A stretch of DNA of 64,000 bases from the NCBI RefSeq assembly GCF_015533855.1, contig NZ_AP024154.1, forward strand, positions 1,801,001-1,865,000, written 5' to 3'. Below are positions 16,618-26,984 of the stretch, in pieces. Positions within the stretch are counted from its first letter, which is position 1; every line of letters starts with the position of its first letter. The position numbers were made by a program, and so were the translations under genes. A model generated the notes under the pieces. The model did no database searches, was not told the origin of the DNA, and saw only the letters and a list, made by a program, of their open reading frames with translations. Origin of the DNA: Echinicola sp. 20G (lineage in GTDB: Bacteria; Bacteroidota; Bacteroidia; Cytophagales; Cyclobacteriaceae).

Positions 16618-16926
16618 TTATTTTTTCTTTAGTTCTTTAATATACTTATCTACATTAATTTCTAATTCGAATAGGCTTATTGTTTTTAAATTTAATGCTT
16701 TGGCTAAAAAAATCAATTTATCTAAGGTGGGATTGGCTTCTCCTCTTTCTATTGTCCCAATTAAGAATTTGGTCAAACTAGTATTATTGTCAGCAAGTTC
16801 TTGTTGAGAAATATGTTCTTTATCATACTCTTTACTTGGTATTTTTTCCCTAAGTTTTAATAAATATTTTCCAAGTTTTTCCTTTTCAGTCACTTTTCTT
16901 CCATTTAGCAATCTTAAATTCCTCAC
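16618..16926 (-). CDS. XRE-family helix-turn-helix regulator (copy 1)
   Basis: 102 residues. A Cro/CI-type helix-turn-helix spans about residues 20-85: LGKYLLKLREKI, ISQQELADNNTSLTKFLIGTIERGEANPTLDKLIFLAKALNL. A short charged C-terminal tail follows. It is a paralogue of the protein at 17059-17367. Both are minus strand and divergent from the sigma/Cas12f-like operon, so they are candidate controllers of it. AT-rich codon use resembles the rest of this island. Confidence 0.85.
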   Translation of the reverse strand: MRNLRLLNGRKVTEKEKLGKYLLKLREKIPSKEYDKEHISQQELADNNTSLTKFLIGTIERGEANPTLDKLIFLAKALNLKTISLFELEINVDKYIKELKKK

Positions 16927-17058: not shown

Positions 17059-17367
17059 CTATCTAATAATATTCTCTTTTTTATTCTTGGATTTTTTAGC
17101 TAAGGATATATACTTTTTCATGTCAAAGTTATAGAGCTCCTTTATAGACACTTTTACTTGTAACGATATTTTTAAGAGGGTTTCGTAGGTAGGGTTTGTA
17201 TTACCTCTCTCAATCTCTCCAATTGTTTTTTTGGCAAAACCGGTGCGATAACCCAATTCTTCTTGTGAAAGTGGTTTATTAGTTTCAGCGTCAATAACTT
17301 TCTCTCTAAGTTCTCTAATTCTATACCCTAATGCTTCTTTCTCTTCTTTGAAACTATTCTCTTTCAT
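17059..17367 (-). CDS. XRE-family helix-turn-helix regulator (copy 2)
   Basis: 102 residues. The helix-turn-helix is RIRELREKVIDAETNKPLSQEELGYRTGFAKKTIGEIERGNTNPTYETLLKISLQVKVSIKELYNF. The pattern is the same as in the neighbouring copy (ERGxxNPT). Its start codon lies 32 bases from a perfect 24-bp palindrome and ~90 bases from the promoter box that drives the opposite strand. It is thus placed to repress itself and the structured RNA/sigma/Cas12f-like unit. Confidence 0.85.
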   Translation of the reverse strand: MKENSFKEEKEALGYRIRELREKVIDAETNKPLSQEELGYRTGFAKKTIGEIERGNTNPTYETLLKISLQVKVSIKELYNFDMKKYISLAKKSKNKKENIIR

Positions 17368-17453: not shown

Positions 17454-17461
17454 TATATTTG
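17454..17461 (+). promoter_or_regulatory. -7 promoter box for the structured RNA and sigma/Cas12f-like operon
   Basis: TATATTTG is an exact TAnnTTTG match. Transcription would start near 17468, shortly before the first base-paired segment of the structured RNA at 17496. The box overlaps a half-site of the adjacent palindrome, consistent with repression by an XRE protein. Confidence 0.55.
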
Positions 17462-17495
17462 CGATTCTTCTAAAGACAGAAAATATTAGAAGCAA

Positions 17496-17692
17496 TTGCT
17501 TTGAGTCTCCAATCGGAAAACTGGCACTTTTCTTTTAGGAACGAGATGATAAGCAGATTTGCTCACGACCCGGGCGTGGGCTCTCTTATCGTTCCAATGG
17601 TATGCCAGTACCTCCGATTAGATAAGTGGAGTTCCACGCCCTCCTATTTTATATTCCATAGGTGTCCGGAATGTGCTTATCCTCCAAAGCAA
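17496..17692 (+). ncRNA. Structured ~200-nt RNA (three-way junction) ahead of the sigma factor gene
   Basis: Hand folding gives a closing helix TTGCTTTG (17496-17503) with CAAAGCAA (17685-17692). Arm I contains AATCGGA (17511-17517)/TCCGATT (17613-17619), ACTGGCA (17520-17526)/TGCCAGT (17603-17609), GGAAC (17538-17542)/GTTCC (17591-17595), GATAAG (17548-17553)/CTTATC (17585-17590), and GCTCACG (17561-17567)/CGTGGGC (17575-17581). Arm II contains GATAAG (17621-17626)/CTTATC (17676-17681) and CCTAT (17644-17648)/ATAGG (17658-17662). This many nested helices are unlikely by chance. Possible roles are a tracrRNA-like or guide-scaffold RNA for the Cas12f-like protein, or a regulatory leader of the operon. 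It does not resemble 6S, SRP, tmRNA or RNase P RNA. Confidence 0.65.
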
Positions 17693-17780
17693 AGGTTTCT
17701 GCATAGGATCATTATGAAGTCTTGCAAGGGAATTCTTTAACCTTAAGTATTCCAAAATCAAACGCTATCTGCAAAACTTT

Positions 17781-18584
17781 ATGCTTATGAAAAGTATGCA
17801 CAAGCCCATGGAAAAGTATTACGAATTATTAAAAAAAGGCGATCCTTCTGCTTTAGAATATATTCATACCCAATATCGTGGCATCATCTTTTGGATCGGT
17901 AGAAGAATACTGAATGATCAGTTTGCAATAGAAACTTTAGTTCAGGATACTTTTTTAAAATTATGGTTTTATAGGGACAGAATAGAAAGACCTGAGCATA
18001 TTCTCTATTTCTTAAAGTTTGTGATGAAAAAGGAATGCATCTCCTACTATTATAAACCCAGAAATAAGTTTTTAAGGGAAGTCAATTCATTAGAGGATTA
18101 TGATAATTACCAAGACTATATGGTGGGGTACGATCCGGAAAGTGTGTCTGAAAATCTGAAAGACCAGGAATCGGAACAAAAAGCCTTCGACCGAATCCAA
18201 ACTATATTGCCATTGCTCAATGCAGAAAGAAGGAATTTGATTGCACTCTGTTTAAAATATGGCTTTCAGTATAAAGCCATTGCCCAGGTTATGGGAAAGG
18301 GCATCACTGAAACCAGTAATGAGATAAAACGGGCTATTCAGGACATTAAAACCATCGTACATCATGGAAATACAAGCGCATATAAGCAAAAATCTCCTGG
18401 TAGTGATATAAAAGGTCCAGAGGAGATGACCGAGGAACAGGAAAGGATATTGGACCTCAGATGCCATATGAAGTATTCCTTTGCGCTAATTGCCGAAGCG
18501 CTGAACCTGTCTCAAAAGGAAGCTCACAAAGAATTTGTTACCGCATATAAACTATGGAAGGAAAAACAGTTCGAATCCGTTTAG
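17781..18584 (+). CDS. ECF-like RNA polymerase sigma factor with extra C-terminal HTH, partner of Cas12f-like protein
   Basis: 267 residues; in-frame ATGs at 17781, 17787, 17796 and 17808 leave the exact start open. Sigma region 2 lies at about 22-92 ([20 protein letters not shown], then [20 protein letters not shown]). Region 4 lies at about 138-192 ([28 protein letters not shown]). A further ~50-residue module (214-262) repeats a sigma-4-like pattern: [34 protein letters not shown]. Ordinary ECF factors of ~180-190 residues lack it. There is no anti-sigma gene. The gene ends one base before the nuclease-dead Cas12f-like gene, implying a fixed partnership. My inference is that the sigma factor is recruited to DNA by the RNA-guided protein, and the added domain may be the contact surface. 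Confidence 0.85.
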
Positions 18585-18585
18585 C

Positions 18586-19683
18586 ATGGAAAACCCTACA
18601 CTAAAATTAACAAGGAAGATCCAGTTATTGGTTGACCTGCCCACCAAAGAAGAAAAGAAGGAGGCATTGAGTACGCTTTACCGATGGCGGAATCGATGTT
18701 TTAGAGCAGCCAACCTTATCGTTTCCCATTTGTATGTACAAGAAATGATTAAGGATTTTTTTTATCTCACAGAAGGAGTCAGGTATAAACTGGCCGATGA
18801 AAAGAAAGATGCAGATGGCATCTTGGAACGTTCTCGTATCGGTAGCACCTATCGGGTGGTATCAAATCGCTTTAAAGGCGAAGTCCCTACCGATATTTTG
18901 TCATGTATGAATAACACCTTACTATCTACTTTCAATAAAAATAAATTGGAATATTGGAAAGGTTTACGTTCTCTGGAAAACTTAAGACGAGACATCGCTT
19001 TTCCATTTAGGCCAAGGAACATAAAAGGGCTATCCTATGAAGAAGATAAAAAAGCTTTTTGCTTTCATTTATTTAAAATTCCATTTAAGACCTATTTAGG
19101 TGGAGATTTTACCGACAAAAGACAACTATTAGTGCGTTTGCTAAATGATGATATTAAGCTATGCACTTCACATATTAAACTCGAAGATGGAAAAATCTTT
19201 TGGCTGGCAGTATTTGAAATTGAAAAGGAAGAGCACGGCCTGAAACCCGAGGTAATAGCAGAAGCATCACTCTCTCTGGAATACCCTATAGTGGTTAAAA
19301 CCGGTAAGAGAAAACTCAGTATTGGAACCAGAGAAGAGTTTCTTTACAGGAGGTTGGCCATACAAGCAGCCTGTAGAAGGGCACAGATGGGCGCTACCTA
19401 CTGCAAATCAGGAAAAGGACGTAAACGAAAACTTAAAGCTGTGAACAAGTTTCACCATATGGAAGCTGATTATATACGTGATCGTATACATCTATACAGC
19501 AGAAAACTCATTGATTTCTGTATTAAACATCAGGTCGGAACACTCATTTTATTAAATCAGGAGGATAAGATCGGAATAGCTAAGGAGGAAGAATTTGTGT
19601 TACGGAACTGGAGTTATTATGAACTCATGACAAAAATAAAGTACAAAGCCGAGAAAGCAGGGATTGAACTTATTGTAGATTAA
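18586..19683 (+). CDS. Nuclease-dead Cas12f/TnpB-family RNA-guided DNA-binding protein
   Basis: 365 residues from the ATG one base after the sigma stop. Residues 1-215 resemble the WED/REC half of Cas12f (LTRKIQLLVDLPTKEEKKEAL, WRNRCFRAANLIVSHLYVQE, IPFKTYL). The RuvC-like half follows. The first catalytic Asp (DLGIKYP-type motif) reads SLSLEYP, with S228 in the Asp place. GKGRKRKLKAVNKF and YIRDRIHLYSRKLIDFCIKHQVGTLILL precede the second site, where the expected Glu is N324. WSYYELMTKIKYKAEKAGIELIVD matches the conserved stretch before the zinc ribbon, but the protein stops there, so the zinc ribbon and third Asp are absent. It should bind a guide RNA and target DNA without cutting. The 3' end overlaps the first putative guide scaffold. 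A decayed TnpB is the alternative, but the frame is intact and operonic. Confidence 0.85.
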   Translation: MENPTLKLTRKIQLLVDLPTKEEKKEALSTLYRWRNRCFRAANLIVSHLYVQEMIKDFFYLTEGVRYKLADEKKDADGILERSRIGSTYRVVSNRFKGEVPTDILSCMNNTLLSTFNKNKLEYWKGLRSLENLRRDIAFPFRPRNIKGLSYEEDKKAFCFHLFKIPFKTYLGGDFTDKRQLLVRLLNDDIKLCTSHIKLEDGKIFWLAVFEIEKEEHGLKPEVIAEASLSLEYPIVVKTGKRKLSIGTREEFLYRRLAIQAACRRAQMGATYCKSGKGRKRKLKAVNKFHHMEADYIRDRIHLYSRKLIDFCIKHQVGTLILLNQEDKIGIAKEEEFVLRNWSYYELMTKIKYKAEKAGIELIVD

Positions 19684-19780
19684 CAAAATGTATCGAGGGT
19701 GCTTGTTCACCCGTAAAGTGAGGTCTAGGACACTCACTAAATGCAAACAGCATATACAACAAGAATCCGATTTAATTAAA
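19666..19780 (+). ncRNA. Putative guide-RNA unit 1 (scaffold 19666-19760, candidate guide 19761-19780)
   Basis: It starts inside the last codons of the Cas12f-like gene, as TnpB omega-RNAs do. The scaffold holds GGGTG-CTTGTT-CACCC and AGTG...CACT hairpins. CTTATTGTA near its 5' end can pair, with one mismatch, with TACAACAAG at the 3' boundary. It ends GCATATACAAC. The next 20 bases are AAGAATCCGATTTAATTAAA. The whole scaffold recurs twice downstream at near identity while this 20-base segment varies. The guide boundary is a guess. Confidence 0.6.
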
Positions 19781-19814
19781 TCAGCAGGGGCTTCGACTTA
19801 AGTTTATCCCTTGC

Positions 19815-19927
19815 TAACCCGTGTTTGCAACTCGGTTTGCTAAATCCAAGCATTTGCAATGCGGTTTTAATATGAATTGTAGCGTTTAAAACGCTTAGAT
19901 TTAGGAGTCCTCGTTACAAACGAGGAC
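19815..19927. repeat. REP-like palindromic element, copy 4
   Basis: It carries AACCCGTGTTTGCAACTCGGTTTGC, GCATTTGCAATGCGG, GTAGCGTTTAAAACGC and GTCCTCGTTACAAACGAGGAC. It is placed between putative guide units 1 and 2 and is part of the ~273-bp tandem period. Confidence 0.85.
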
Positions 19928-19938
19928 AAGATAGGATA

Positions 19939-20052
19939 GAACTTATTGTAGATTAATAAATGTATCGAGGGTGCTTGTTCACCCGTAAAGTGAGGTCTAG
20001 GACACTCTCCAAATGCAAACAGCATATACAACAAGAATCCAATTTAACTAAA
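19939..20052 (+). ncRNA. Putative guide-RNA unit 2 (scaffold 19939-20032, candidate guide 20033-20052)
   Basis: Second tandem copy, including a duplicate of the last codons of the Cas12f-like gene (GAACTTATTGTAGATTAA). The scaffold differs from unit 1 at only a few positions. The candidate guide is AAGAATCCAATTTAACTAAA, two changes from unit 1. It is not translated, so conservation of the scaffold points to RNA function or recent duplication. Confidence 0.6.
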
Positions 20053-20090
20053 TCAGCAGGGCTTCGACTCCACTCAGCCTGCCGCCTTGT

Positions 20091-20203
20091 TAACCCGCGT
20101 TTGCAACGCGGTTTGCTAAATCCAAGCATTTGCAATGCGGTTTTAATATGAATTGTAGCGTTTGAAACGCTTAGATTTAGGAGTCCTCGTTACAAACGAG
20201 GAC
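20091..20203. repeat. REP-like palindromic element, copy 5
   Basis: TAACCCGCGTTTGCAACGCG, TTTGCTAAATCC, GCATTTGCAATGCGG, GTAGCGTTTGAAACGC and GTCCTCGTTACAAACGAGGAC. Nearly identical to copy 4; lies between guide units 2 and 3. Confidence 0.85.
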
Positions 20204-20214
20204 AAGATAGGATA

Positions 20215-20328
20215 GAACTTATTGTAGATTAACAAATGTACCGAGGGTGCTTGTTCACCCGTAAAGTGAGGTTTACGACACTCACTAAATGCAAACAGCA
20301 TATACAACAAAAACCCGATCTAATTAAA
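20215..20328 (+). ncRNA. Putative guide-RNA unit 3 (scaffold 20215-20308, candidate guide 20309-20328)
   Basis: Third tandem copy, 276 bp after unit 2. The scaffold again ends GCATATACAAC. The candidate guide is AAAAACCCGATCTAATTAAA, three changes from unit 1 and five from unit 2. All three units continue TCAGCAGG before merging into dispersed repeat sequence, which limits the unit length. Confidence 0.6.
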
Positions 20329-20368
20329 TCAGCAGGGACTTCGACTTAAGTTTATCCTGAGCCCTTGC

Positions 20369-20481
20369 TAACCCGTGTTTGCAACGCGGGTTGTTAAATC
20401 AGTGCATTTACAATGCGGTTTTAATATGAATTGTAGCGTTTGAAACGCTTAGATTTAGGAGTCCTCGTCGCAAACGAGGAC
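20369..20481. repeat. REP-like palindromic element, copy 6
   Basis: TAACCCGTGTTTGCAACGCGGGTTGTTAAATC, then GCATTTACAATGCGG, GTAGCGTTTGAAACGC and GTCCTCGTCGCAAACGAGGAC. It closes the tandem array on the right. Confidence 0.85.
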
Positions 20482-21340
20482 TAGATTGGGTAATCTTGTT
20501 TCTACTTATCTACTTTTTTTCTATTGATGAAAAAAGTAGCAAAACCTGCCTGCCGGCAGGCAGGAAATCTAGGCCGGTGGTCTGGCCTTTAAATTGGGAA
20601 GAAAATGTATTCTTGCGATAAGTATTAGTTACCCAATTTAATTTTAATGGTATTGTTCCAGCCTAAAAGTGAGCGGAGGTAGTCCGATAGTGAAAGGGAA
20701 AGGTTCTTTAAACTGAGAAAACGATCTCATAAACGAGAGGACCTACCCTGCAAGCTGGCTACTCGCTAAAAACAGTCACTGACTATTTTCTTTACGCACG
20801 TCCCTCCACGACGCGAGCTAGCTCCCTTTTTTAACGGCCTATACAACAGCATTAAAATCTGCCATACCAAGGACCACTTCTTGATGTCAAAACGATTTTC
20901 TATTTGATGGGCTTACAAAGTGATTTTTAGGTTTTTGAAGAATTCCTTTCTAACACAAAGTGAATTGCTCAAGAACAGATCCTCTGTCCCCTCCTTTCTA
21001 CTCCCTGATTCAAAGTCCAACCACACTGAAAGACTAAAATTTTACCAATTATATCTAAAAATACCCCATCTGGGGTATTTTATGGTTATGTGGGATTTAG
21101 TAGGTTTAAGGGCTTGTTTTGTTTTTAATGATTGAGACAAAGAAAGAAGAAATAAATTCTAGAGTTCCATTTGGAATGTTTGGTTAGCATGATTAAGAAA
21201 TACATAAACTCTTACTTGCTTCTACACCATGGTTGAATGCTTTGAAACTAGCACTCCGCTTATATTGAAGTGGGGAAAACTTTATGGTGAACATACTGGA
21301 TGCAAAATATTTAGAATCGTAAAAACCTAACCCAGCCTAA
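20482..21340. other. Gene-poor stretch with a 20-bp palindrome and a terminator-like hairpin
   Basis: No convincing gene. It contains the perfect palindrome CCTGCCTGCCGGCAGGCAGG (20545-20564), a dispersed-repeat type. At 20660-20840 there is a sequence that may be a decayed mobile remnant: on the minus strand a frame interrupted by stops reads ELARRGG...KKIVSDCF. A strong hairpin lies at 21058-21081. Upstream signals for the following operon are probably within the last 250 bases, but I cannot identify a clear promoter. Confidence 0.4.
21058..21081 (+). terminator. Strong hairpin, possible bidirectional terminator
   Basis: AAAATACCCC-ATCT-GGGGTATTTT has a 10-bp perfect stem with a 4-base loop and A/T tracts on both sides. 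It insulates the Cas12f-like/guide region from the downstream membrane operon. Confidence 0.6.
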
Positions 21341-26678: not shown

Positions 26679-26984
26679 ATGGGTGAAGCCTATCAGGTAA
26701 GAGATCAGGAAATGCCTTATTTTTTGACCTTCCAGGTGGTAGGTTGGGCAGATGTTTTTTCAAGAAAAGTCTATAGAGTCATCGTCTTGGAAAACCTGAC
26801 CTATAGCAGAAAAGAAAAAGGACTTTACCTTTTTGGATATGTCATCATGACAAACCATATTCATTTGGTGGTTCAGCAAAAGGACGGGAAATTGTCAGCA
26901 TGGGTACGTGATTTCAAAAAGTTTACAAGCAAGAAACTACTTGCCATGATTCTGGAGAATCAACAAGAAAGAAGGAAAGAATAA
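26679..26984 (+). pseudogene. Truncated REP-associated tyrosine transposase (RAYT, Y1/HUH)
   Basis: 101 residues. MPYFLTFQVVGWADVFSR, the HUH metal motif H60-I-H62 in YVIMTNHIHLVVQ, and WVRDFKKFTSKKLL are typical of Bacteroidota RAYTs. Full-length proteins are nearly twice as long and end with the YxxNP region carrying the catalytic tyrosine. Here the frame stops after QQERRKE, so the catalytic end is missing. It probably mobilised REP-like elements in the past and is now inactive. Confidence 0.82.

Follow-up and report, generated by a model that had tools for sequence, protein, structure and literature searches.

We analysed a stretch of 64,000 nucleotides from the genome of Echinicola sp. 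20G, C1:1801001-1865000 of a single contig of 5.79 Mb, which we call the window. It encodes a nuclease-dead Cas12f homologue (dCas12f) together with a sigma factor and an array of guide RNAs (gRNAs), preceded by a conserved structured RNA that we named R1 and by a divergent regulator gene. Positions are those of the window unless a contig is given, and related loci are cited by our own L numbers.

The sigma factor, dCas12f and the guide RNA array

The sigma factor is a protein of 267 amino acids of the extracytoplasmic function (ECF) type, encoded on the plus strand at 17781-18584. It was recognised by its open reading frame (ORF), by a Pfam match to Sigma70_r2 (E 1.2e-5) and by a PDB sequence search, in which it matched 9n9q_C, ‘RpoE’, at E 7.7e-104. 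The stop codon TAG (18582-18584) is followed by a single C and then by the ATG of the dCas12f gene at 18586. This agrees with a preliminary description made from the letters alone, which placed a sigma gene one base before a Cas12f-family gene of 365 residues. A sigma match lies directly upstream of dCas12f at 80 out of 80 related loci, less than 400 nt away in 78 of them; the spacing is unusual in L055 (about 455 nt apart) and L094 (3-nt overlap). These loci are the best 80 of 105 and form an uneven set, a large share of which comes from Chryseobacterium and its relatives.

The dCas12f gene itself (18586-19683, plus strand) encodes 365 amino acids. Its Pfam matches, OrfB_IS605 and Cas12f1-like_TNB, are all below threshold, and the latter covers 20 of 60 profile positions. 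In the PDB sequence search residues 3-364 matched 9n9c_A, ‘Nuclease-deactivated Cas12f’, at E 4.8e-187. The 9n9c chain is identical, in the alignment rows compared, to the protein of Allomuricauda (Flagellimonas) taeanensis (L052), with which the window protein shares 74% identity. The closest named relatives are Echinicola species, whose dCas12f is 97-99% identical. Both window proteins are closely orthologous to those of the solved dCas12f/RpoE pair (PDB 9n9c/9n9m/9n9q), and for this reason we regard the pair as a machine of a known kind. The AlphaFold model of dCas12f is modest (pLDDT, the predicted local distance difference test, 73; predicted template modelling score, pTM, 0.55). A Foldseek search with it ranked 9n9m and 9n9c first, in keeping with the Cas12f fold expected beforehand, with a poor superposition (root-mean-square deviation 11).

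The preliminary description held that Ser228 and Asn324 replace two RuvC acids and that the protein stops before the zinc ribbon and the third Asp. In the alignment to the PDB match, S228 does occupy the position of the RuvC-I Asp of Cas12f, and it is invariant in 19 out of 19 aligned proteins. The second part of the claim is less secure. Position 324 is N in 17 of the 19 (D in L067, K in L044), and the catalytic Glu of active Cas12f aligns to 323, 324 or 326 of the window protein, depending on the gaps; N324 cannot be placed securely in the active site, and the second RuvC acid is ambiguous. The chain ends where those of active Cas12f proteins go on, and because it ends before that part it has neither zinc ribbon nor third Asp, as had been proposed. 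The window protein shares its fold and most of its chain with active Cas12f (Al3Cas12f 9nzo/9nzr, CnCas12f1 8hr5, AsCas12f 7wju), but the intact RuvC D-E-D and zinc ribbon of a Type V-F Cas12f nuclease are not found in it, and the RuvC site remained incomplete on alignment.

Downstream of the gene lies a tandem array of three units of about 275 bp (19660-20480, plus strand), each comprising a copy of the dCas12f gene end, a gRNA and an interspersed hairpin repeat. The gRNA units occupy 19694-19780, 19966-20052 and 20242-20328 on the plus strand. All begin with a 67-nt scaffold (19694-19760, 19966-20032 and 20242-20308), followed by 20-nt tails that start at 19761, 20033 and 20309 with the guides AAGAATCCGATTTAATTAAA, AAGAATCCAATTTAACTAAA and AAAAACCCGATCTAATTAAA, respectively. 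A search of the whole genome for further scaffold copies with up to 3 mismatches returned none besides these three. The predicted gRNAs would be about 85-90 nt long, with 3′ ends 15-20 nt past GCATATACAAC.

The three hairpins of the scaffold are kept across 37 sequences, with 99.0% of cells paired. Double changes occur in 18 cells, in the third hairpin, a count that none of 500 shuffles reached; as for doubly changed pairs, of which there are 3, 78 of the 500 had as many. These figures refer to a shifted helix register, which has the support of the 37 scaffolds; the first register was dropped. The three scaffolds named in the preliminary description thus stand, while the tails are not freely variable as it had suggested: they differ at 5 out of 20 positions, and every difference is a transition.

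The window therefore contains the parts of a dCas12f-sigma system, namely a RuvC-dead Cas12f, an adjoining RpoE-like ECF sigma factor, and a scaffold with a 3′ guide past the gene. It resembles the solved dCas12f-gRNA (and RpoE) complexes (PDB 9n9c, 9n9m, 9n9o, 9n9q) in family, protein length and sigma partner. The A. taeanensis locus likewise has a scaffold after the gene and R1 upstream of the sigma gene (153.9 bits), but it carries a single scaffold whose guide, TTGTGGGATATACGCTAACA, is unlike those of the window.

Echinicola guides and a family of SusC-SusD loci

A candidate target family became visible because of sites in sister species, taken together with a codon pattern. E. arenosa has an exact site and E. 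salinicaeni two sites, all in the same context, the 3′ end of a short ORF that reads ...KPKNPI-stop. In that frame the window guides read Lys-Asn-Pro-Ile-stop, and the four places among the first 15 nt at which they differ (3, 6, 9 and 12) are all third codon positions. By our own arithmetic, the chance of all four falling on third positions is about 0.4%, rising to 1% if the frame is not fixed. Rather than arbitrary 20-mers, the three guides are near-copies which, over some 15 nt, vary with the synonymous codons of a single target family.

A search with this codon pattern listed 27 matches, from which we read in context nine loci of the KPKNPI layout and one more, L293; the other 17 have 3 mismatches each. 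The nine loci belong to four Echinicola genomes: two lie in the window genome (C1:3071448-3071471 and C1:4205360-4205383) and seven in three sister species. At all nine a gene on the opposite strand lies upstream, in which Pfam found a helix-turn-helix (HTH) domain in eight cases (some below the cut-off; none for L319). Downstream, again at nine out of nine, three large genes follow on the same strand in the order and size of a secreted/Trx protein, SusC and SusD. Pfam confirmed Trx, SusC and SusD at all three loci tested (L285, L315 and L286, two of the window genome and one of E. salinicaeni). L293, from E. salinicaeni, is a tenth family member, with an HTH-like ORF upstream and the same kind of gene downstream. 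The earlier suggestion that the targets are ‘possibly SusCD’ is thus matched by guide-like sites upstream of Trx-SusC-SusD genes at both window-genome loci and at the seven in sister species.

The best guide match over 15 nt amounts to 13 and 13 in the window genome, 13, 13 and 12 in E. shivajiensis, 15 and 14 in E. salinicaeni, and 14 and 13 in E. arenosa.

Small secreted DUF6520-like proteins are found at the candidate Echinicola SusCD targets (L285, 799-1869; L286, L288, L315-L319), and several of these loci also have MauE-like genes; in L285 the Pfam match is above the cut-off for MauE and below it for DUF6520. Guide 1 of the Joostella locus L043, AAAAAACCTGTTTAAATAAA, reads Lys-Lys-Pro-Val-stop, which is Echinicola-like.

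The R1 element and the hairpin-D guides of relatives

R1 and the divergent HTH gene upstream were absent from the preliminary description. R1 (17489-17640, plus strand) lies between the HTH gene and the sigma gene and comprises 36 modelled pairs, a pseudoknot-like helix and a 3′ tail; the evidence for it comes from covariation, a covariance model (CM) and folding. Just 5′ of it is the promoter-like sequence TATATTTGCGATTC (17454-17467, plus strand), which is similar in most R1 elements. The 3′ strand of one of the R1 hairpins, hairpin D, reads GCGTGGGCTCTCTTAT (17574-17589, plus strand) and is the same as the guide of several relatives. The tail, GAGTTCCACGCC (17629-17655, plus strand), is complementary to this strand, runs into a T-containing tract and is terminator-like. 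The divergent gene (17059-17367, minus strand) encodes an XRE/Cro-type HTH regulator of 102 amino acids (Pfam HTH_3, E 8.9e-8). A second HTH_3 gene lies just past it, also on the minus strand (16618-16926).

The structure of R1 was modelled by hand on stretches that are complementary and covary, and the counts were then made on the same sequences, so that shuffled and slid counting controls are the only guards against hand-fitting; a consensus made by RNAalifold on a MAFFT alignment was discarded in its favour. For the nested fold, 95.4% of cells were paired across 25 diverse sequences, and 15 pairs showed double changes. Neither the percentage paired nor the covariation score, nor the counts of double-change pairs and double-change cells, was matched by any of 500 shuffles; 29 of them had as many pair types, and slid controls had 31-40% of cells paired. 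The pseudoknot-like helix is weaker, being equalled by at most 8 of 500 shuffles on four of five measures and by 129 on pair types. In the same 25 sequences CCACGCC of the tail pairs with the hairpin D 3′ strand in 100% of cells. This helix has 5 double-change cells, a count reached by none of the 500 shuffles, and 2 double-change pairs, reached by 94, as was its number of pair types.

In 52 of 57 elements the 9 nt past the tail include at least 6 T, compared with 44 of 741 background windows. The tract at 17629-17655 is weaker than most: it has 5 T and belongs to the five elements short of six. Together, tail and T tract look like an intrinsic terminator that would compete with hairpin D.

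The window element scores 149.1 bits against the CM, its own sequence being part of the model, and has a folding z-score of -3.28; the divergent HTH gene typical of R1 is present as well. It matched none of the Rfam 15 covariance models at E<=1, and neither did R1 in L222, L225, L195 and L052 or the R1-like element in L255 at E<=0.1. The CM found R1 upstream at 62 of the 80 dCas12f loci, 24 of which had helped to build it, and in 33 out of 296 genomes of the phylum, the window genome included. A divergent ORF lies 5′ of R1 in 56 of 58 elements, and such ORFs match an HTH family at E<=0.0065 in 10 out of 10 relatives tested, 6 of them above the curated cut-off. Among 22 R1 loci of about 3 kb each (L189-L210, including L195, a seed of the R1 model), a SusC-like gene is present in 15, a FecR-like gene in one and neither in 6.

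Three R1 elements in the genome of Flavivirga algicola L060 (L165, L231 and L234) are without their 5′ half and have in its place a stretch with a gene for a 331-aa transposase, which we take to be IS110-like; all three retain the hairpin D 3′ strand and the tail. The R1 hairpin is a possible preferred insertion point. Directly 3′ of standalone R1 elements we also noted small proteins of about 103-112 aa in two families (one in L227 and L228, the other in L165, L231, L232 and L234).

Guides of the hairpin-D type, starting with G[C/T]GTGG[G/A], were found at 62 of the 80 loci by a script that used a pattern of 7-8 nt. Three more were recognised by eye, in L077 (outside the pattern) and, with GGCATGGG, in L043 and L044, which gives 65 out of 80. 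The 15 loci without such a guide are L039-L042, L052, L056, L057, L061, L068, L069, L071, L073, L091, L094 and L118. Several scaffolds are also possible in relatives among the 80 loci, and in L043, L044, L055 and L062 the hairpin-D-type guide comes last among the guides found within 420 nt. The Allomuricauda/Flagellimonas guides (L052, L056, L057 and L061), TTGTGGGATA[T/C]ACGCTAACA, mismatch hairpin D of their own R1, GCGTGAGCTTAC. The three guides of the window show no match to hairpin D.

In eight genomes with hairpin-D guides, the sites that differ from the 16-mer GCGTGGGCTCTCTTAT by no more than one mismatch, 25 in total, all fall into three classes: gRNAs (8), the R1 leader of the own operon (6) and R1 elsewhere (11); some of the gRNA and leader assignments are based on contig and spacing. 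Nine of the 11 standalone sites are strong matches to the R1 model, and two (L231 and L165) are 3′ halves cut by the presumed IS110-like gene, L231 giving a weak match (E 0.044) and L165 not being reported by the model. Five of the 11 are followed on the same strand by genes for SusC-SusD or ECF sigma factors, namely SusC-SusD at L222 and L225, ECF-FecR-SusC at L223 and an ECF sigma gene at L232 (all by Pfam), as well as an ECF sigma gene at L231 (by reading frame). At two mismatches 8 further matches appear, four of which (L224, L230, L234 and L170) were assigned to R1 elements or a leader.

The systems of this family use a 5′-G as the target-adjacent motif (TAM). A G precedes the hairpin-D site in 52 out of 52 leaders and in 28 out of 28 distinct standalone elements, 80 found by pattern in total; this G is also a paired base of R1. 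Across 42 guide-leader pairs identity is 0.88-1.0 at positions 1-7 and 1.0 at position 9, falls to 0.67-0.69 at positions 8 and 10, and is about 0.3 at positions 11 and 12.

Proposed RNA-guided activation and its alternatives

The protein and gRNA families, the R1 structure, the guide-site identities and the positions of the sites are read from sequence. The dCas12f-sigma family acts by forming an R-loop and recruiting the sigma factor, with a transcription start downstream; such transcription depends on guide and sigma factor, needs no promoter motif and begins at a set distance from the R-loop. For the window and its relatives, the gRNA would load into dCas12f, and its guide of about 15 nt would form an R-loop with DNA that lies upstream of an operon. 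The sigma factor encoded alongside would then recruit RNA polymerase, and transcription would begin downstream of the R-loop. The common target layout would consist of a divergent HTH regulator, a self-terminating structured RNA (R1 or, tentatively, an R1-like element) and then the operon, with the HTH protein acting as repressor and R1 as attenuator.

In most relatives, the guide matches hairpin D of R1 before other operons and before the sigma-dCas12f operon, which would give a start past the R1 terminator and, in addition, autoregulation. The bypass would be built in, because a transcript that starts past the R-loop would be without the strand needed for the R1 terminator. In Echinicola, the array would have been retargeted to the leaders of two or three Trx-SusC-SusD operons, where its site is the 3′ end of the short ORF (...RKPKNPI-stop), past the tentative R1-like element. 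Its guides differ at codon wobble positions, as if they were tracking the members of the target family.

At the sites examined, in both guide classes, the guide equals the sense strand; therefore it can pair with the template DNA and not with that mRNA. This favours DNA targeting over an antisense action. We infer RNA-guided activation of SusCD loci, with autoregulation in most relatives, and consider it probable that the window holds an Echinicola-type dCas12f-sigma module for RNA-guided transcription whose natural targets are SusC-SusD nutrient-uptake operons. A wider proposal is more tentative, and we would put it a little short of an even chance. According to it, R1 would be a class of HTH-controlled, self-terminating leaders that silence SusCD and sigma-dCas12f operons, and dCas12f-sigma would be its dedicated RNA-guided bypass; a conserved guide would define a regulon of interchangeable transporters, and arrays would follow new members by wobble changes.

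A number of results weigh against these proposals. Searching the window genome for the guides, put forward earlier as one of the checks, gave counts at chance level: 45 hits versus 61 in the reversed control for 20-mers with up to 3 mismatches, 115 versus 96 for 14-mers, and 136 versus 120 for 16-mers with a TAM and up to 2 mismatches. Nothing common was seen among 27 guide-like sites read in context, and the plain search was dropped as proof of targets. The window genome has no perfect target, each of its sites matching at 13/15, and L293, which ends in KKPI-stop, matches the guides of its own species at just 11/15. Of the nine Echinicola sites, 4 are preceded by G and 5 by A, the sole perfect 15-nt match being among the latter. 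The distance between these sites and the first gene of the operon is 610-910 nt. R1-like elements at Echinicola targets are weak (L217, E 0.23; L255, E 0.0035, tentative), and the R1 model search gave none that is convincing and in the right place at L238 and L239.

Other points concern R1 and the hairpin-D guides. dCas12f is present in just 3 of 25 R1-bearing genomes tested, the window genome among them; therefore R1 should have a function independent of dCas12f, and the guides are not the cause of its conservation. At six of the 11 standalone sites, what follows is a contig end or a gene of another kind. The hairpin-D site GCGTGGGCTCTCTTAT is still present in the window, as a single copy in its genome within 2 mismatches, without a guide to match it. 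Finally, guides fit their own leader no better than the leaders of others (42 pairs; 2.29 versus 2.24 mismatches of 12, with 1530 of 2000 shuffles as low). No coevolution is therefore seen within the hairpin-D class, and we dropped it as a line of evidence.

Known systems offer two further comparisons. ECF sigma-FecR pairs control SusCD loci in Bacteroidota. Sigma-driven SusC-SusD expression would be common to them and to the window system, and the target locus L223 has ECF and FecR genes of its own, but the proposed system would pick its sites by guide RNA and not by promoter motif. TldR is, like the window protein, a nuclease-dead relative of TnpB/Cas12 used for RNA-guided regulation. The window differs in having a sigma gene one base upstream of dCas12f, and TldRs are not known to have a sigma partner.

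TldR also brings to mind a road-block, in which dCas12f-gRNA bound inside the R1 leader or the short ORF would stop transcription from the HTH-controlled promoter, in the manner of TldR or of CRISPR interference. The hairpin-D sites do lie inside R1, downstream of the promoter-like element, and PMC13418256 describes TldRs, nuclease-dead TnpB homologues, as repressing RNA-guided transcription factors; those it deals with are phage-encoded repressors of flagellin genes, not activators. We nevertheless find repression unlikely, as it needs no sigma factor, whereas a dedicated one adjoins at every one of the 80 loci and is homologous to RpoE, a chain of the PDB entry in which dCas12f was solved as well. 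Still less probable is a switch between RNAs, in which the gRNA 3′ end would mimic the hairpin D strand, pair with CCACGCC of the R1 tail and prevent the terminator from forming (anti-termination in trans). The guide does carry the hairpin D strand, to which the tail is complementary in all cells, with some double changes. This switch would have no need for dCas12f, and it leaves the Echinicola guides unexplained, as these are the sense strand of a coding end with no complement in that mRNA.

We give an equally low probability to the idea that the shared hairpin-D sequence reflects common origin or was kept for another reason, so that the guide would be unused and its matches by-products of a conserved RNA. 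The lack of a better fit to own leaders and the frequency of R1 without dCas12f speak for it. The guide, however, lies outside R1, after a differently structured scaffold, and yet its first 7-9 nt are near-constant across genera; moreover, a second, unrelated guide type also points at SusCD loci of similar layout. That the gene is a decayed, functionless TnpB remnant, as the ‘transposase’ label on some relatives in public records might suggest, is refuted in practice. Homologues at E<=1e-3 number 1259, and the 120 of them that were listed are 351-378 aa long; the sigma gene is upstream at all 80 loci, and complexes of an orthologue have been solved.

RNA-guided activation, the reading we prefer, has joined the known modes of bacterial regulation only recently, and which targets it naturally controls is the open question. 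The machine of protein, sigma factor and gRNA is already known from the solved structures. What appears to be new here is the R1 element, the correspondence between hairpin-D guides and sites, and the KPKNPI target family; literature searches, which did not reach the dCas12f-sigma papers themselves, returned nothing on R1, the hairpin-D regulon or the Echinicola targets. The candidate targets (SusCD operons) and the covarying RNA element common to many of them, both taken from sequence, are directly testable in cultured marine strains. If the wider proposal is true, interchangeable outer-membrane transporters form a regulon that is defined by a conserved natural guide. The Echinicola array is a natural example of guides that seem to keep pace with synonymous changes in a target family.

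The hairpin repeats that follow the gRNA units, GCATTTGCAATGCGG, GCGTTTGAAACGC and CCTCGTTACAAACGAGG, are spread over 19804-20490, and more copies occur near the window locus and in a cluster at G000:C1:4386756-4389599. An ORF of 101 aa at 26679-26984, which presumably resembles a Y1/REP-associated transposase, is possibly tied to these repeats.

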